A stretch of DNA of 64,000 nt from Arthrobacter hankyongi. GTDB lineage: Bacteria; Actinomycetota; Actinomycetes; Actinomycetales; Micrococcaceae. Location: contig NZ_JAKLTQ010000002.1 in NCBI RefSeq assembly GCF_022012395.1, positions 372,001-436,000 of the forward strand. Direction: 5' to 3'. Each line of letters opens with the position of its first letter. Within the stretch, counting starts at the first letter, position 1. Shown here piece by piece: positions 33,608 to 42,717 of the stretch. The position numbers and the translations under genes were made by a program. Under the pieces are notes generated by a model, which ran no database searches, was not told the DNA's origin, and was given only the letters and a program-made list of their open reading frames with translations.

Positions 33608-34318
33608 TCAGGGCCCGGCGGCGGGCTCGGCGGTTTTTTCGAGCCCCACCTCTCCGGCGTTGCGGACCGCGTCCATGGTGGTCTCGTAGTGTTCCCGTAG
33701 GAGCCGGGCCGCCCGGGGTGCGTCCCGCTTCAGGGCAGCGTCCAGGATGTTCCGGTGCTCCTGCTCGATGTCGCGCTGGGCGTCACGCGTGGCCATGCCG
33801 GCCCACCGTCCGTAGAGCTGGACGATGTCCGAGAGCGTGGAGGTCAGGTCGATCAGCACCGGCACGCCGCAGGCCTCGAGCAGTTTGGCGTGGAACGCCT
33901 GATGGGCATCGTTCCATTCCTGCGTGTGTTGGTCCGGGTCGTCGGTCTGGCGGCGGGGCGTGCGTTCGAGGGTATGGTGGGCGGCGATCAACTCCGATTC
34001 CCAGTGCAGATCCCCGCGCTTGATCGCCAAGGTGATGGCAAACTCCTCATTGACGCAGCGCAGTTCCGTAATATCCTCCAGCTCGGCCAGGGAAATGGGC
34101 GGCACGAAGAAGCCGCGGTTCGGCTTGAGCTGGACCAAACGGTCTCCCACCAGCCGGGTCAGCGCCTCCCGGATCACCGTGCTGCTGGTTTGGTAATACT
34201 CCGAGAGCGCGGCGAGTTGGAGCTTTTCGCCCGGTGACCAGCGGCCGGCGAGAATGTCCCGGCGCAAGGCATCCCGGATGTGCTTGCTCAGGGTCTCGGA
34301 GTCGGTGCGCTTTGCCAT
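33608..34318 (-). CDS. GntR-family (FCD subfamily) transcriptional regulator
   Basis: 236 residues. The winged HTH is at about 5-75 (HIRDALRRDILAGRWSPGEKLQLAALSEYYQTSSTVIREALTRLVGDRLVQ), followed by a helical FCD ligand domain at about 85-215 with metal-type residues in NDAHQAFHAKLLEACG and EHRNILDAALKRD. It is divergent from the second BVMO operon, with an ATAATGC/GCATTAT inverted repeat between them, so it probably represses that operon and itself. Confidence 0.9.
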   Translation of the reverse strand: MAKRTDSETLSKHIRDALRRDILAGRWSPGEKLQLAALSEYYQTSSTVIREALTRLVGDRLVQLKPNRGFFVPPISLAELEDITELRCVNEEFAITLAIKRGDLHWESELIAAHHTLERTPRRQTDDPDQHTQEWNDAHQAFHAKLLEACGVPVLIDLTSTLSDIVQLYGRWAGMATRDAQRDIEQEHRNILDAALKRDAPRAARLLREHYETTMDAVRNAGEVGLEKTAEPAAGP

Positions 34319-36459: not shown

Positions 36460-37952
36460 GCGGGACCGCGTCACTGGCGGCCAGCCCCGGCACCGGTCCC
36501 GGTGCCGGACCGGCCGCCACGGGCCGGAACCAGGGCCTGCCGGGTGTGGCCACGCAGGTTTCAGGCGGCGTGGTGGGCGCCCTCGGCCTGCACTACGGTG
36601 CCCGGCTGGATCCGGCCGCCCGCTTCAGTCCGGTGGGGGAGCCGTCCCCGGGACTGGTCCAGTCCGCACCTGCGGCCTTTCCGCAGTCTCCGGGCGCCCT
36701 GGACTGGCTGCAGGGCCCGGCGCTGGCGGAACTGCCGCAGCATGAGGATGCATTCCAGCTCAACGTCTGGGCGCCTGAGGGTGCGCAAGGTGCCCCCGTA
36801 CTGGTCTATATTCCCGGCGGCGCGTTCATCAGCGGTGCCGGCACCGTGCGCTGGTACGACGGCGAGCGGCTGGCGCGCGACGGCGGCGCCGTCGTCGTCA
36901 CCGTGAACTACCGTCTGGGCGCGCTGGGGCTGATGGGCGATGAGCGGACGCCGTCGAACCTGGCCGTGGGGGACCTGCTGCAGGCGCTGCGCTGGGTGCG
37001 CGCGAACATCGGCGCCTTCGGCGGCGATCCGGACCAGGTGACCCTGGCGGGCCAGTCCGCCGGGGCCTTCTACGCCTACCTGCTCAGCCAGTTGCCGCAG
37101 GCCGAGGGCCTGTTCCGGCGCACCGCCCTGCTGAGCCTGGCCTGGCAGCCTCCGCTCGCCCCTGCCGAATACGCCGAGCGCTACCGGCTACTGGCCGAGG
37201 CGCTGGGGCCGGACGCTGACCTGGCCCAGGTGCAGGCAGCGGAGCTGCTGCGGGCACAGCGGGAGGTCGGCAAGGCGTATGCCGGCCGCGGGCTGGGCCT
37301 GATGCCGGCCGCGGACGAGGTGGTGCCGGCGGACCTGTTCGATTTCGCCGCGGCCGCCGGACGCCTCCACGTGGACCGACTGCTGCTGAACACCACCCAG
37401 GACGAGTCCGCGGCCTTTCTGAAGGCAGTGCCGGTGGAGGCTGTCACCGACCAGGTGCTCGCCGGGTTCATCGGCGCGCACTTCGAGGACATGCCGGCCA
37501 CCCTGGCCTGGCTGGACGCAAAGCTGCCCGGCGCCACCCGGCACGCCAAGCTGGTCGAGGCCATGACACTGCACCAGCTGCGGCTGGCCGCCGACGAGCT
37601 CGCGGGACAGGCGGCCACCGTCGGAGTCCCCGCAGTGGTGGCCCGCTTCGGCGTCGCCAGCCCGCTGGAAGGCGCCGGCAGCGCACACTGCTTTGAGCTC
37701 CCGTTCCTGTTCGGCATCCGGGGCAACTGGGCGGACGCCCCGGCCCTTCAGGGGGTCTGCGAGGATACGTTCGAGCGGGCCGGCGCCGGGCTGCGCTCGC
37801 TGCTGCTGGGCTTCGTAGCCGACGGCACCCCGCGGACGCACGACGGCGCCGCCGTGGCGGCGTTCGATCCGGCGGATCCGCGGGTGTACCTGGTCGACGG
37901 CGGGGCTGCGCGCTACGTGCAGGCCGAGCGGGGCCTGCGGCCGCGGCGCTGA
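36456..37952 (+). CDS. Carboxylesterase family (type B) hydrolase
   Basis: 498 residues, type B carboxylesterase fold. The oxyanion region is VYIPGGAFISGAG and the nucleophile elbow is FGGDPDQVTLAGQSAGAFYAYLL (Ser near 198). The catalytic His is likely in AHCFELPFLFG. The first 40 residues are low-complexity Gly/Pro/Ala. The ATG at 36456 overlaps the BVMO stop (ATGAG). The frame stays open far upstream but that part lies inside the BVMO gene and is not coding. By position it hydrolyses the ester made by the BVMO, freeing a phenol and acetate (or another acid). Confidence 0.88.
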   Translation: MSGTASLAASPGTGPGAGPAATGRNQGLPGVATQVSGGVVGALGLHYGARLDPAARFSPVGEPSPGLVQSAPAAFPQSPGALDWLQGPALAELPQHEDAFQLNVWAPEGAQGAPVLVYIPGGAFISGAGTVRWYDGERLARDGGAVVVTVNYRLGALGLMGDERTPSNLAVGDLLQALRWVRANIGAFGGDPDQVTLAGQSAGAFYAYLLSQLPQAEGLFRRTALLSLAWQPPLAPAEYAERYRLLAEALGPDADLAQVQAAELLRAQREVGKAYAGRGLGLMPAADEVVPADLFDFAAAAGRLHVDRLLLNTTQDESAAFLKAVPVEAVTDQVLAGFIGAHFEDMPATLAWLDAKLPGATRHAKLVEAMTLHQLRLAADELAGQAATVGVPAVVARFGVASPLEGAGSAHCFELPFLFGIRGNWADAPALQGVCEDTFERAGAGLRSLLLGFVADGTPRTHDGAAVAAFDPADPRVYLVDGGAARYVQAERGLRPRR

Positions 37953-37995
37953 GACCGGCTGTTCGCGGGCGGTCGGACAGGGAAAGCACGGTGAA

Positions 37996-38037
37996 GCAAA
38001 GGGCGGTTCCTGCCAAAAGGCAGGGGCCGCCCTTTGC
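37996..38037 (+). terminator. Terminator after the esterase gene
   Basis: GCAAAGGGCGGTTCCTGCC (37996-38014) pairs with 38019-38037 around an AAAA loop, with one small bulge. Confidence 0.75.
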
Positions 38038-38156
38038 TGCTGCCGGTGGTCAGTCCCACGCGCCGGTCTGCGGGGCCGTCGAAATCCCGGCAGCAAAGTG
38101 TTGCCAATCACAAGCAAGTTAAATAGAATCAGACACAGAATATATTTTTCATTCGA

Positions 38157-38169
38157 TTATGTTGCATAA
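38157..38169 (+). promoter_or_regulatory. Operator-like site before the HpaB-type gene
   Basis: TTATG-TTG-CATAA is an inverted repeat in an AT-rich pocket (AGAATATATTTTTC just upstream could be the -10 region). The TTGCATAA part repeats the octamer found in the GntR intergenic region. Confidence 0.5.
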
Positions 38170-38212
38170 GACGGCGGGTCCCGGAGGCCGCGTCCAAGCA
38201 TAAGGAGTAATT

Positions 38213-39712
38213 GTGACTGCACGCACCGGAGCAGAGTACAAGGCAGGCCTGGCCGACGGGCGCGAGGTATGGCTGGGAGCCGAGCGCATCAACGTGCTCG
38301 AGCATCCGGCCTTCCGTGGATCCATCGAAGGCATGGCTGGCTACTTCGACTACCAGCACAAGTATGCCGCCGACTGCCTCACCATGGATCCGGCCACCGG
38401 CGGACAGATGAATGTCAGCCTGATGCTGCCGAAGAACGCCGGGGACATCGCCACCCGCCACCGGGCCTTCGACCGCCTGGCCCGCTATTCCAACGGCATG
38501 CTTGGCCGTACCCCGGACTACGTGAACGTGGTGCTGGCCGGCCATGTCTCGCGCAAGGATATCTTCGACCGCTCCGGCGACCCGGTCTTCCACCAGCGGC
38601 TGGCCGCTTACCACCGCGAGGTCATCGAGAAGGACCTGGCCCTGACCCACACCATCGTGCATGCGGCCATCGACAAGAGCGTCGGGGAGCTGCAGGGGAT
38701 CAACGAGGACCTGACCTTGCGCGTGGTCCGGCGCACCGATGAAGGGCTGATTGTCCGCGGTGCCAAGATGCTGGCCACGCTGGGCCCGATCGCCGACGAG
38801 CTGTATGTCTACCCGGCAACGCCAATCCAGCCCGGCTTTGAGGAATACGCGCTGTCCTTCGCCATCCCGGTGGCTACCGAAGGCGTGGTGGCGGTCTGCC
38901 GCGACCACTACGGGATCGACGCCGACGTGGCGGACAAGCCTTTCTCCTCCCGCTTCGACGAGCAGGACGCGGTCATCATTTTCGATGACGTGCTGGTCCC
39001 CTGGCACCGGGTCTTCATCGATGGCAATCTGGATGTCTACAACTCCCTCAATTCGGGCACCGCTACGGGCAACACGCAGCAGCAGACCGCCATCCGCGCC
39101 TCGGTGAAGCTTGAGTTCGCCTACGACCTGTGTGTACAGATGGCCAAGGTGACCGGCACCGAGTCCAAGCCGGACGTGGCCTCGATGCTCGGGGAGATCT
39201 ACTCCTACCTGCGCATTGCCCGCTCAGTGGTCCATTCCGCCGAGGTCAACGCTTCCGACTGGGGCGGCGGGGCGTTTTTCTGCCACGACGACATCAGCTC
39301 GCTGCGCACCGTAATGCCGGTCTGGATGGCCCGGGTCAACGACATCATCAAGTCCATGGGCTCGCACAACCTGCTGGCGACCCCGACGCGGGCCGCCTTC
39401 GACGATGCCCGCCTCGGCCCGCTGCTGCAGAAGTATCTGCCCGGGGCCAACGGCATCCCGGCCGAAGAACGCGCACGGATCTTCCGCACCGCCTGGGACT
39501 TCGCCGGATCCGCGCTCGGCAGCCGGATCGAACTCTACGAGCGCTTCTACCTGGGCAGTGTAGGCCGCGCCCGGGCACTGGACCACCGCAAGGCCCAGGC
39601 CAAGGGTGAGACCGGAGCCTACCGGGCGATGTTCGACGAGGCCGCCGTGCCCCCGGTCCCGCAGCTGGACGACGTCGTCGTTCCCGGCCAGCCCGTCGCC
39701 GCCCGGCACTAG
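38213..39712 (+). CDS. 4-hydroxyphenylacetate 3-hydroxylase (HpaB)-family flavin-dependent monooxygenase
   Basis: 499 residues, the full length of HpaB/PheA-type oxygenase components. Features are RTGAEYKAGLADGREVWLGAERI, RLARYSNGMLGRTPDYVNV, KDLALTHTIVHAAIDKSV, FSSRFDEQDAVIIFDDVLVPWHRVF and WDFAGSALGSRIELYERFYLG. The enzyme takes reduced FAD from a partner and hydroxylates a phenol ortho to its OH. The likely partner is the reductase domain at 41138. The start is GTG 38213 with AAGGAG 5 bases upstream. It would act on the phenol released by the esterase, though that is inference. Confidence 0.9.
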   Translation: MTARTGAEYKAGLADGREVWLGAERINVLEHPAFRGSIEGMAGYFDYQHKYAADCLTMDPATGGQMNVSLMLPKNAGDIATRHRAFDRLARYSNGMLGRTPDYVNVVLAGHVSRKDIFDRSGDPVFHQRLAAYHREVIEKDLALTHTIVHAAIDKSVGELQGINEDLTLRVVRRTDEGLIVRGAKMLATLGPIADELYVYPATPIQPGFEEYALSFAIPVATEGVVAVCRDHYGIDADVADKPFSSRFDEQDAVIIFDDVLVPWHRVFIDGNLDVYNSLNSGTATGNTQQQTAIRASVKLEFAYDLCVQMAKVTGTESKPDVASMLGEIYSYLRIARSVVHSAEVNASDWGGGAFFCHDDISSLRTVMPVWMARVNDIIKSMGSHNLLATPTRAAFDDARLGPLLQKYLPGANGIPAEERARIFRTAWDFAGSALGSRIELYERFYLGSVGRARALDHRKAQAKGETGAYRAMFDEAAVPPVPQLDDVVVPGQPVAARH

Positions 39713-39721
39713 GCGCTGGCC

Positions 39722-41128
39722 ATGACGGCAACAGCCGAAACCACCACTATCACCGGCCAGGTGGCCCGGCATCTGGCCGGGATGGAGTTCGAGGCGATCG
39801 ACGTACGCACCCTGGCCCGCGCCAAGGTGCGCCTGATCGACTCGCTGGGCAACATCGCGGCCGGGCACCGAGCCCAGGGCAACGACGCCGTCCTGCAGTT
39901 GGCCGGCCGCTGGGGCGGGACGCCGGAGGCGACCGTGCTGGTGCACGGACTGCGCGTCCCGGCCCAGACCGCGGCGATGGCCAACGCCGTGATGATGCGC
40001 TCCTACGATTTCGAGGCCATCGGTGCCGAAGGGCCGGACCGGATGCAGGTGGCCGCGCACATCTCCGGCACCACCGTTCCGGTGGCGCTCGCGGTGGCCG
40101 AGCGGCAACGGTCCACGGGCCGGCAGCTGCTCACCGCCCTGGTCCTCGGCGACGACCTGGCGTCGCGGTTGGCCGCTGCCTCCGGCTTCGACGTCTACAG
40201 CGGACAGGACAACACCGGCACCGTCAACGGGTTGGGCGGGACCGCCGCCGCGGGCAAGCTCCTGGACTTGGACGAGGCACAGCTGCGCCATGCGCTTGGC
40301 ATCGCCGTGAACCAGCTCTCCGGTACGGTGGCGAACATCTTCGACCAGACCCTGGCGTTCAAGCTGCCCATGGCCTTCGCTGCCCGGAATTCCATCGTCT
40401 CGGCGGAACTGGCCCAGCTGGGGTTCACCGGTCCGGCCGATGCGATCGGTGGCCGCCACGGCTTCCTGGACATGTACTGCGCCCAGCCGGTGCCGGACCG
40501 GATCACCCACCGGCTCGGGGAGGAGTTCTACGGGGACTGCGTCATCAAGCCCTGGTCCGCCTGCCGGGCCAGCCACCCCTCGCTGGATGCCTGCGTCCGG
40601 CTGGTCACGGAAAACACCGTGGACCTGGACGCGGTCGAGTCGGTGCGCATCCACGTTACGCCCCGTACCCTGGCCGGCTTCGTGGGGCAGCCCTTCGAGC
40701 CCGGTGCCTGCCCGGAAGTTTCCGGAGCCTTCAGCATCCGGTTCACCGCGGCGACGGCGCTGATGTGCGGAACGGTCCGCCCGGAACACCTGCACCTCGC
40801 GCACATGCAGGACCCTCGGCTGCAGGCCCTGCTGGAGAAGATCACCTTGATCGACTCCCTGCCGCCGCACGAGTCCCTCACCGCCGAGGTGGAGCTGCTG
40901 CGGCGGGACGGCCCGCCGCTGCGCTCCCGGGTGGACGCACCCCGCGGGGACATCTACACGGCCCCGCTGTCCGAGGCCGAGATCCTGGACAAGTACTACG
41001 CCAACGTCGCATTCGGCGGCCGCATCGGACACGCGGCGGCTACCGAAGCCATCGACATCGTCAACAACCTGGAGTCCGTCGAGGACATCTCCGCCCTCGT
41101 GCGGCTGTTCGCCCCGGGACAATCTTAG
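39722..41128 (+). CDS. MmgE/PrpD family protein
   Basis: 468 residues with the two-domain MmgE/PrpD layout: RLIDSLGNIAAGHRAQG, MMRSYDFEAIGAEGPDRMQVAAHIS, NGLGGTAAAGKLLDLDEAQLRHALGIA and KPWSACRASHPSLDACVRL. Characterised members are 2-methylcitrate dehydratase, cis-aconitate decarboxylase and related lyases. It has no known role in aromatic degradation, yet it lies 9 bases after the HpaB gene and 9 before the reductase-regulator gene, so it belongs to this transcript. It probably acts on a carboxylic intermediate. The ribosome site is weak, which suggests translational coupling. Confidence 0.85.
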   Translation: MTATAETTTITGQVARHLAGMEFEAIDVRTLARAKVRLIDSLGNIAAGHRAQGNDAVLQLAGRWGGTPEATVLVHGLRVPAQTAAMANAVMMRSYDFEAIGAEGPDRMQVAAHISGTTVPVALAVAERQRSTGRQLLTALVLGDDLASRLAAASGFDVYSGQDNTGTVNGLGGTAAAGKLLDLDEAQLRHALGIAVNQLSGTVANIFDQTLAFKLPMAFAARNSIVSAELAQLGFTGPADAIGGRHGFLDMYCAQPVPDRITHRLGEEFYGDCVIKPWSACRASHPSLDACVRLVTENTVDLDAVESVRIHVTPRTLAGFVGQPFEPGACPEVSGAFSIRFTAATALMCGTVRPEHLHLAHMQDPRLQALLEKITLIDSLPPHESLTAEVELLRRDGPPLRSRVDAPRGDIYTAPLSEAEILDKYYANVAFGGRIGHAAATEAIDIVNNLESVEDISALVRLFAPGQS

Positions 41129-41137
41129 GAGGAAACA

Positions 41138-42286
41138 ATGAGCACCAACCCCACCATCGACTTCGGCGTGGACCAGCTGGTCTTCCGCAACGTCGTCGGG
41201 CACTTCGCCTCCGGCGTCACCGTCATCACCACCGTCGTCGACGGCGAGCTATTCGGCACCACCGCCTCGGCCGTGTCCTCGCTGTCCATGGAGCCGCCGA
41301 TGATGCTGGCCTGCCTGAACCGCTCCAGCTCCACTCACGATGCCGTGGTCAAGGCCGGCTGGTTCGGCATCAACATCCTGGCCGAGGACCAGAGCGACCT
41401 GGCCATGAAGTTCGGGCGCAAGGGGGCGGACAAGTTCGACGGCGTGTCCGTTACCCGGTCGCAGCACGGCGGCGTGCCGCTGCTCGACGGCGCGCTGGCC
41501 CAGATTGTCTGCAAGGTCGAGGAAACCCCCACCGGGGGCACCCACACCGTGTTCCTGGGTTTGGTTGCCGAGGCCGGCGCCCGGGAGGGAGCCGAACCCC
41601 TGGCCTACTACCGCGGCACCTTCGGACGCCTGGAGCGGGTCAAGGAACTGGCCGCCTACGACGCTGTGCGCGATTGGGTGCTGCACCGGCGGACCCCGCT
41701 CGGTGAAGAGCTTGACCCGGCCCAGATCGCCGCGGCGCTGAAGGCCGATGCGGACCATGTCCACAACGCGCTCGTGAAACTGACCGCCGAATCGCTGGTC
41801 AGCCGTGCCGACAACGGCGGCTTCCTGCCCACGCCGATCACCCACGAACTGATCGAGAGCGTCTACGACGGGCGCGCCACCATCGAGCTCGGCGTCTTCG
41901 CCAGCCACTTCGGCAAGTTCACCGGCGAGGTCGTCGCCGAGCTCGGAAGCCTCGCTGCCGAGCTTGGCCGGCTGCGCGAGCGCGGCCAGGACGGGCTGGA
42001 CGAGTTCCTCAAGCTCAACGTCAAGTTCCACGACCGGCTGGTCAGCGTGGCCGGCTCGGCCCAGTTGGCGGATGCCTTCCGCCGGCTGGGCATCGGCACC
42101 GTGTGGCGCCAGGCGCTCAGCGGGGACGAATGGGCGCGGCAGATGGACCACAGCCACATCGTGGACCTGACCGAGGCGCTGCGGGCCCGCGATCCGGAGG
42201 ATGCCAAGGCGGCCATCCTGGCCCATACGGAATTCGGCAAGCAGTTGGCCCGCGAGGTCATTGACCGCCACGGCGGGGAGGTCTAG
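41138..42286 (+). CDS. Flavin reductase fused to a GntR-like HTH and FCD sensor domain
   Basis: 382 residues with two halves. Residues 1-165 are a flavin-reductase split barrel of the HpaC type (FRNVVGHFASGVTVITT, TTASAVSSLSMEPPMMLACLN, GWFGINILAEDQ, FLGLVAEAG). Residues about 175-232 look like a winged HTH (LDPAQIAAALKADADHVHNALVKLTAESLVSR). Residues about 235-375 are a helical FCD domain with its metal-type residues: FHDRLVSVAGS near 297, DHSHIVDL near 337 and AHTEFGKQL near 362. AGGAGG precedes the ATG. It should supply reduced flavin to the HpaB enzyme, and may also bind an effector or DNA. Confidence 0.85.
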   Translation: MSTNPTIDFGVDQLVFRNVVGHFASGVTVITTVVDGELFGTTASAVSSLSMEPPMMLACLNRSSSTHDAVVKAGWFGINILAEDQSDLAMKFGRKGADKFDGVSVTRSQHGGVPLLDGALAQIVCKVEETPTGGTHTVFLGLVAEAGAREGAEPLAYYRGTFGRLERVKELAAYDAVRDWVLHRRTPLGEELDPAQIAAALKADADHVHNALVKLTAESLVSRADNGGFLPTPITHELIESVYDGRATIELGVFASHFGKFTGEVVAELGSLAAELGRLRERGQDGLDEFLKLNVKFHDRLVSVAGSAQLADAFRRLGIGTVWRQALSGDEWARQMDHSHIVDLTEALRARDPEDAKAAILAHTEFGKQLAREVIDRHGGEV

Positions 42287-42298
42287 TAACGGTTCCGG

Positions 42299-42368
42299 AA
42301 GGGGCCGCACCGTTGGTCGGGTAAGGTCGCTCTGCGGCCTTATCGAGACCCGGTGCGGCCCCTTTTTT
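42299..42368 (+). terminator. Terminator after the reductase-regulator gene
   Basis: AAGGGGCCGCACCG (42299-42312) pairs with 42351-42364, with an inner stem, and is followed by a T-run (TTTTTT). Confidence 0.8.
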
Positions 42369-42649
42369 GTGGCTGGGCAGGCCTCACAGCACCTTGGGCA
42401 CCGGGCCCGCTGCTGTGGTTGCGAAGCGTCAGGAATCCGGTGTCTTGCCACGCACCGGGGACAGCCGAGGAAACGGTGCCGGATGGTTAGAGCCTCAGGG
42501 CTCCACGTCGGACGTGAACTACGGCCTGATTTGGGTGCATGAAGCATCGCTGAAGAACGTGCGGCAGCTCTCGCCAGGACGCCGGGCCGGGAAAACATAG
42601 CCTTCGGGAGCGGCTGCCTCACGGGGGAAAGGCGAGGCCTGCCCGGGAC
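42369..42649. other. Intergenic region, nothing recognised
   Basis: About 280 bases between two terminators that close convergent operons. Short frames lack ribosome sites and families. No repeat or operator was seen. Confidence 0.5.
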
Positions 42650-42692
42650 AGCAGAAGACCCGGGCCGCGGGAGGCGGTCCGGGTCTTCTGCT
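42650..42692 (-). terminator. Terminator after the minus-strand FAD hydroxylase gene
   Basis: AGCAGAAGACCCGG (42650-42663) and CCGGGTCTTCTGCT (42679-42692) are perfect 14-base arms. Confidence 0.7.
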
Positions 42693-42717
42693 GGCAGGAC
42701 GGTCAGCGGCTGCTGCC

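Follow-up and report, generated by a model that had tools for sequence, protein, structure and literature searches.

A protein in which a flavin reductase domain is joined to a whole one-component regulator module is encoded by the last gene of a three-gene operon in Arthrobacter hankyongi. By analogy with characterized systems, it is probably (we would put it at about 0.58) the flavin reductase of a two-component monooxygenase, gated by a ligand through this regulator-derived module, which would not bind DNA. Most likely, the regulator-derived half switches the enzyme rather than genes. The protein and its parts are located as follows in the window, that is, the whole stretch of 64,000 nucleotides that was analyzed:

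41138-42286, plus strand: flavin reductase-winged helix-FCD fusion protein of 382 aa, encoded by the final gene of the operon
41174-41635, plus strand: flavin reductase domain, residues 13-166 (Pfam PF01613, PDB sequence matches, Foldseek)
41642-41833, plus strand: GntR-like winged helix with its DNA-contact residues lost, residues 169-232 (Pfam PF00392, AlphaFold, residue counts)
41747-41767, plus strand: D204 A205 D206 H207 V208 H209 N210, where GntR proteins commonly have S-R-T-x-x-R-E (alignment; Atu1419 contacts from PMC7797058)
41843-42268, plus strand: FCD domain, residues 236-377, with metal-site positions N294, H298, I341 (canonically His), and H363 (Pfam PF07729, Foldseek)

In Pfam, Flavin_Reduct is found at residues 21-165 (E 4.9e-41, 140.8 bits against a cut-off of 27) and FCD at residues 242-365 (E 1.4e-13, above its cut-off), while the GntR HTH at residues 172-229 scores just below the cut-off (E 7.4e-6, 26 bits against 27). 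The reductase domain has PDB sequence matches to 3nfw, 1rz0, and 5zc2. The full-length AlphaFold model (15 sequences) has a mean pLDDT of 80 and a pTM of 0.52, the mean pLDDT across the five models ranging from 63 to 80. It contains a winged helix made up of helices 169-182, 194-201, and 205-217 and strands 221-223 and 229-231, followed by an all-helical domain at residues 236-377. Residues 166-382 modeled alone reached a pLDDT of 89.7 and a pTM of 0.79 (13 sequences), and all 48 PDB matches of this model at E <= 1e-3 in Foldseek are titled transcription regulator or DNA-binding protein, many of the titles naming GntR, VanR, or FadR. Its top structural matches are Atu1419, McbR, and TM0439. 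Together with AlkR, these GntR-FCD regulators of the VanR subgroup show the same combination of winged helix and helical FCD domain (TM 0.58-0.79 on the query, Foldseek), but the fusion differs from them by its N-terminal reductase and by the replacement of the middle metal histidine with Ile. An earlier note, made from the DNA letters and their translations, had described a single polypeptide composed of a flavin reductase, an HTH-like segment, and an FCD domain; Pfam and AlphaFold agree on that composition, and both the winged helix and the FCD fold are seen after residue 170 with AlphaFold and Foldseek.

Many genomes contain this fusion as a single open frame, and a chance join or a frameshift could therefore be ruled out. 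Over 17 pairs, drawn throughout from the window's clade, dN/dS was <= 0.51 for each of the three domains and highest for the HTH, with synonymous sites close to saturation in some of the pairs; it follows that all three domains are maintained and in use. The junction of reductase and HTH is conserved as well, with E166, E170, A173, and Y174 invariant among 15 aligned fusion sequences.

The surrounding genes and signals are the following:

38101-38129, plus strand: promoter-like site before the HpaB gene, a consensus match only (one found in 37900-42700, mean 0.3 in shuffles)
38213-39712, plus strand: HpaB-type flavin monooxygenase, the likely partner (Pfam HpaB_N E 6.5e-81, HpaB E 1.2e-37)
39722-41128, plus strand: MmgE/PrpD family protein, middle gene of the three-gene operon (Pfam, gene order)
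42297-42366, plus strand: highly stable hairpin bearing a T run, immediately downstream of the fusion gene (-56.2 kcal/mol, z -7.6)
33608-34318, minus strand: stand-alone GntR-FCD regulator that keeps the HTH residues Arg49 and Glu50 and has Ser at position 45

The HpaB and MmgE/PrpD genes are separated by a gap of 9 bp, as are the MmgE/PrpD and fusion genes. Both the upstream hydroxylase and the separate regulator had been named in the earlier note, and Pfam confirms them. The closest solved structure of the HpaB protein is 2yyg (E 1e-76), and from context and analogy the fusion should supply reduced flavin to this hydroxylase. The MmgE/PrpD protein matches cis-aconitate decarboxylase and IDS-epimerase in the PDB (best E 5e-26); in the loci of the clade that were examined, its gene is flanked by those of the hydroxylase and the reductase. 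The hairpin lies between the fusion gene and a converging FAD monooxygenase gene and is probably a terminator, although the output of a consensus terminator scan does not include it. Further members of the cluster are two Baeyer-Villiger-type monooxygenases, a carboxylesterase, an FAH hydrolase, and an NMT1-type ABC transporter. The cluster points to an aromatic or ketone compound as its substrate, and no more finely than that.

The same gene neighborhood is found in relatives. The order HpaB, MmgE/PrpD, reductase is present in 15 of 15 related loci, which come from Arthrobacter, Pseudarthrobacter, Sinomonas, Paeniglutamicibacter, and Galactobacter (one of them, L035, is cut by a contig end), and also in L074 and L075; L076 is a repeat of L028. 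The MmgE/PrpD gene adjoins the fusion gene in all 16 short loci (L036-L051), seven of which repeat the 15 related loci by protein identity. Among 12 more divergent relatives, the direct neighbor is a flavin monooxygenase in six: a luciferase-type enzyme in L062, L063, and L066, a StyA-type enzyme in L067, and HpaB in L069 and L071. Two further divergent relatives have an oxygenase candidate within about 5 kb, namely a luciferase-type gene ~2 kb from the fusion in L070 and an Acyl-CoA_dh_2 protein ~4.6 kb away in L068, a domain that we take to include flavin monooxygenases. For the remaining four of the 12, given either as L053, L054, L058, and L060 or as L064, L065, L072, and L060, the neighbors examined included no flavin oxygenase, with only some ORFs scanned; in L064 and L065 a TPP enzyme adjoins the fusion gene. 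As the oxygenase neighbors belong to different classes, reductase and fused domain stay together whichever class the oxygenase comes from. In one of three such records examined, that of Novosphingobium humi, an HpaB protein 64% identical to that of the window is followed directly by a bare reductase without the C-terminal module, and the sensor is therefore an add-on. An oxygenase-reductase-FCD triple fusion was considered for the long ORFs in L057 and L058 and was rejected: Pfam gave nothing at E <= 0.01 for their extra N-terminal stretches of ~480 and ~430 residues, and the stretch in L057 runs antisense over an HpaB gene.

A comparable arrangement with another effector domain exists in the genome of the window itself. 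Two proteins combine a flavin reductase with an IclR_C effector domain and are each encoded directly beside an Acyl-CoA_dh_2 protein, at G000:C2:25785-26378 (L011/L092) and G000:C2:98190-98669 (L016/L093). They resemble the fusion in this respect, but carry IclR_C instead of FCD, and no HTH was detected in them. Their Acyl-CoA_dh_2 neighbors are presumably HsaA/DszC-like. A different combination was observed at L009:1000-1968, where a SnoaL-like domain and a flavin reductase share one open frame beside a GntR-FCD regulator gene.

The best Foldseek match of the whole fusion model is the C1 reductase of the p-hydroxyphenylacetate 3-hydroxylase from Acinetobacter baumannii (5zyr/5zc2), with an E of 3.3e-13 over 264 columns, an rmsd of 14, and a TM of 0.33 on the query. 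At the level of the predicted model, this match suggests the same domain order and not the same packing of sensor and reductase. Both proteins combine a flavin reductase with a C-terminal domain from a transcription-factor family in the context of a two-component flavin hydroxylase, but the sensor of C1 is of the MarR type, whereas that of the fusion is a GntR-like winged helix plus FCD. According to PMC10816480, the C-terminal MarR domain of C1 is self-inhibitory; 4-hydroxyphenylacetate lifts the inhibition on binding, with an increase of at least 30-fold in flavin reduction. Ligand gating is thus reported for C1 in that text and would apply to the fusion by analogy: the FCD fusion is read as a ligand-gated reductase because of the MarR gating of C1 and the IclR_C reductases in the same genome. 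A shorter tail is also known, as PMC6205950 describes a C-terminal HTH on the reductases of 4-chlorophenol, 4-fluorophenol, and 4-nitrophenol monooxygenases. In proteins of the CphB type, the flavin reductase is followed by a GntR-like HTH as in the fusion, but CphB of Pseudarthrobacter chlorophenolicus A6 (L061:9971-10747) has only 259 aa and ends soon after the HTH, without an FCD domain. An HTH tail alone can therefore persist.

To judge what the added module may do, its wHTH-FCD part was aligned for 15 stand-alone FCD regulators of the window's genome and for 36 different fused proteins, of which 12 are divergent and 24 belong to the clade of the window protein. The metal site of Atu1419 is formed by Asn137, His141, His192, and His214 (PMC7797058), with the last two histidines 22 residues apart, a spacing also given for TM0439, CitO, and LldR. 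The same spacing is found in the fusion as Asn294, His298, Ile341, and His363, so the middle histidine is missing, and the claim of the earlier note that the metal-binding His positions are kept is wrong for one of the three. His340 lies one residue away from the middle metal position; of the 24 proteins in the clade, three have Tyr in its place. That middle position itself is Ile or Val in 24/24 fused proteins of the window's clade; it is His in 14/15 stand-alone regulators versus 5/36 fused proteins. Counted strictly, the metal site is complete in 8 of the 15 stand-alone regulators and in 5 of the 36 fused proteins, all five of them divergent (L055, L056, L057, L058, and L068). L067, the relative that adjoins a StyA-type gene, has lost the entire site. 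Comparison with the divergent members suggests that the loss occurred after the fusion arose; the tree has long branches that meet, and this suggestion does not draw on it. As the set of metal ligands is incomplete at Ile341, classical metal-assisted carboxylate sensing may not apply in the window's clade. Other FCD positions are kept in the 36 fused proteins: Arg246 in 33, Glu250 in 34, Asn294 in 29, His298 in 34, and His363 in 33. By analogy, the FCD part of the fusion is probably a ligand sensor.

The low number of complete metal sites among fused proteins would also fit a winged helix and FCD domain that serve as a structural or docking module, for example in dimerization or contact with the oxygenase, without sensing a ligand. 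This explanation could further draw on the conserved junction and on CphB, which retains only the HTH. Against it, five FCD positions are kept in 29-34 of 36 proteins, a docking surface for one oxygenase does not account for the differing partner classes, and the parallel in C1 is a sensor. We regard the structural module as the strongest of the alternatives, though clearly less probable than ligand gating.

The ligand-gated reading also holds that the module has left DNA behind, and here the winged helix is informative. The third helix of Atu1419 contacts DNA through Ser44, Arg45, Thr46, and Arg49, as stated in PMC7797058; in the fusion these four positions are D, A, D, and H. Neither arginine is present, with A205 at the position of Arg45 and H209 at that of Arg49, whereas CphB, compared by eye, has Arg and Tyr at positions 45 and 49, respectively. 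The counts for these positions are given without a probability because the fused proteins are not independent of each other. An arginine at position 49 is found in 15/15 stand-alone regulators but in only 2/36 fused proteins (L054 and L060), that is, in none of the 24 of the window's clade and in 2 of the 12 divergent ones. For position 45 the numbers are 9/15 and 3/36, for both arginines together 9/15 and 0/36, and Glu50, directly after Arg49, is kept in 13/15 versus 0/36. Arg45 is not universal among true regulators, as the one at 33608 has Ser there. The earlier note proposed checking whether the HTH recognition helix is basic; the stretch 172-232 is net acidic in the window protein (-3), and its mean net charge is -1.5 in the fused proteins versus +1.3 in the 15 stand-alone regulators. 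The helix itself is not decaying, with N210 found in 25/36, A211 in 34/36, L212 in 33/36, and L215 in 36/36 fused proteins. From these residues we infer that the regulator module of the fusion no longer binds DNA. Control of transcription by the fusion protein appears unlikely because the GntR DNA-contact residues are gone in the window protein and in nearly all relatives.

A bifunctional protein, at once a flavin reductase and a DNA-binding autoregulator of its operon, would agree with the presence of the whole wHTH-FCD module in regulator order, with the few relatives that have Arg at one of the two positions, and with the occurrence of Arg45 in no more than nine of the 15 true regulators. 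Against it stand the 0/36 for both arginines and for Glu50, the acidic HTH stretch, and the two parallel IclR_C fusions without HTH. The cluster moreover has a normal GntR-FCD regulator at 33608-34318, and related regulators are found near the fusion gene in L024, L035, and L074; it is more likely this stand-alone protein that acts as the transcriptional regulator of the cluster. Judged by the DNA-contact residues and the charge, transcriptional autoregulation is not supported, and we consider the bifunctional protein improbable. The function proposed in the earlier note accordingly holds in part: supply of flavin to HpaB and an FCD sensor are favored by context and analogy, but control of transcription is not. 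Finally, a sensor of redox or flavin state, with the reductase as input and FCD as output (e.g., through protein contact), is very improbable, since nothing direct speaks for it beyond the fact that domain fusions may run either way, and the operon linkage to oxygenases as well as the conserved FCD positions speak against it.

The fusion is not confined to one gene or one genome. The genome of the window (67 contigs, 5.19 Mb) contains a second copy of the architecture with 53% identity. Matches at E <= 1e-60 were found in 6 of 10 genomes of the genus, and matches at E <= 1e-38 in 23 of 295 sampled genomes of the family, 22 of them with the fusion by query coverage; in one family genome (G004) the match spans the reductase alone. 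In the phylum, 5 of 396 genomes match, the window's own included, and the other four carry FCD by Pfam, while the 2 matching genomes among 396 of the order both belong to that same family. For each genome, the large searches scored no more than its 4 to 6 best candidates, so absences in them are soft. Of 72,556 plasmid records searched with tblastn, 140 matched, one of them, from Dietzia lutea, with >=80% query coverage. As a separate observation, 29 sites of the window's genome match the fusion at E <= 1e-3, one of them via the regulator part alone; for a single genome, this number of reductases seems high.

The novelty of the protein is less than the earlier note supposed. HTH-tailed flavin reductases and the MarR-gated C1 are in print (PMC6205950 and PMC10816480), and the FCD version is a variant of what is already known from them. 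Searches of open-licence PMC papers brought up no description of a flavin reductase with an FCD domain; in the accessible parts of PMC6016940 and PMC6498646 the searched terms occur but are unrelated to each other. Domain databases may well contain the Flavin_Reduct plus FCD architecture already.

If the protein is a ligand-gated reductase, its action could be pictured as follows. The N-terminal domain would reduce free flavin with NAD(P)H, and the reduced flavin would be passed to the HpaB-type oxygenase, whose gene lies two positions upstream. The whole one-component regulator module, consisting of the winged helix and a VanR-type FCD domain, would have been fused on and would no longer bind DNA. 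A compound of the pathway would occupy the FCD pocket, and the winged helix, which follows straight on from the reductase, would relay the signal such that flavin reduction is released or raised. Reduced flavin and NADH would then be spent only with substrate present.

A broader proposal, to which we give slightly less than an even chance, is that flavin reductases have repeatedly adopted one-component sensing modules (MarR, GntR-FCD, and IclR_C) and dropped DNA binding, using them as allosteric valves. In this proposal the FCD lineage serves at least three oxygenase classes (HpaB, luciferase-type, and StyA-type), and in five of its divergent members the metal site is still intact.

Should ligand gating prove true, a transcription-factor module would have been re-used whole as an enzyme switch, and the loss of DNA contacts could be followed at each residue. 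Ligand control of two-component monooxygenases would become testable, with the bare reductase of Novosphingobium as a natural control. Biocatalysis, in which the uncoupled consumption of NADH causes practical difficulty, could also profit from ligand-gated flavin supply, and the finding would extend a type of enzyme control of which one reductase is the well-studied example.
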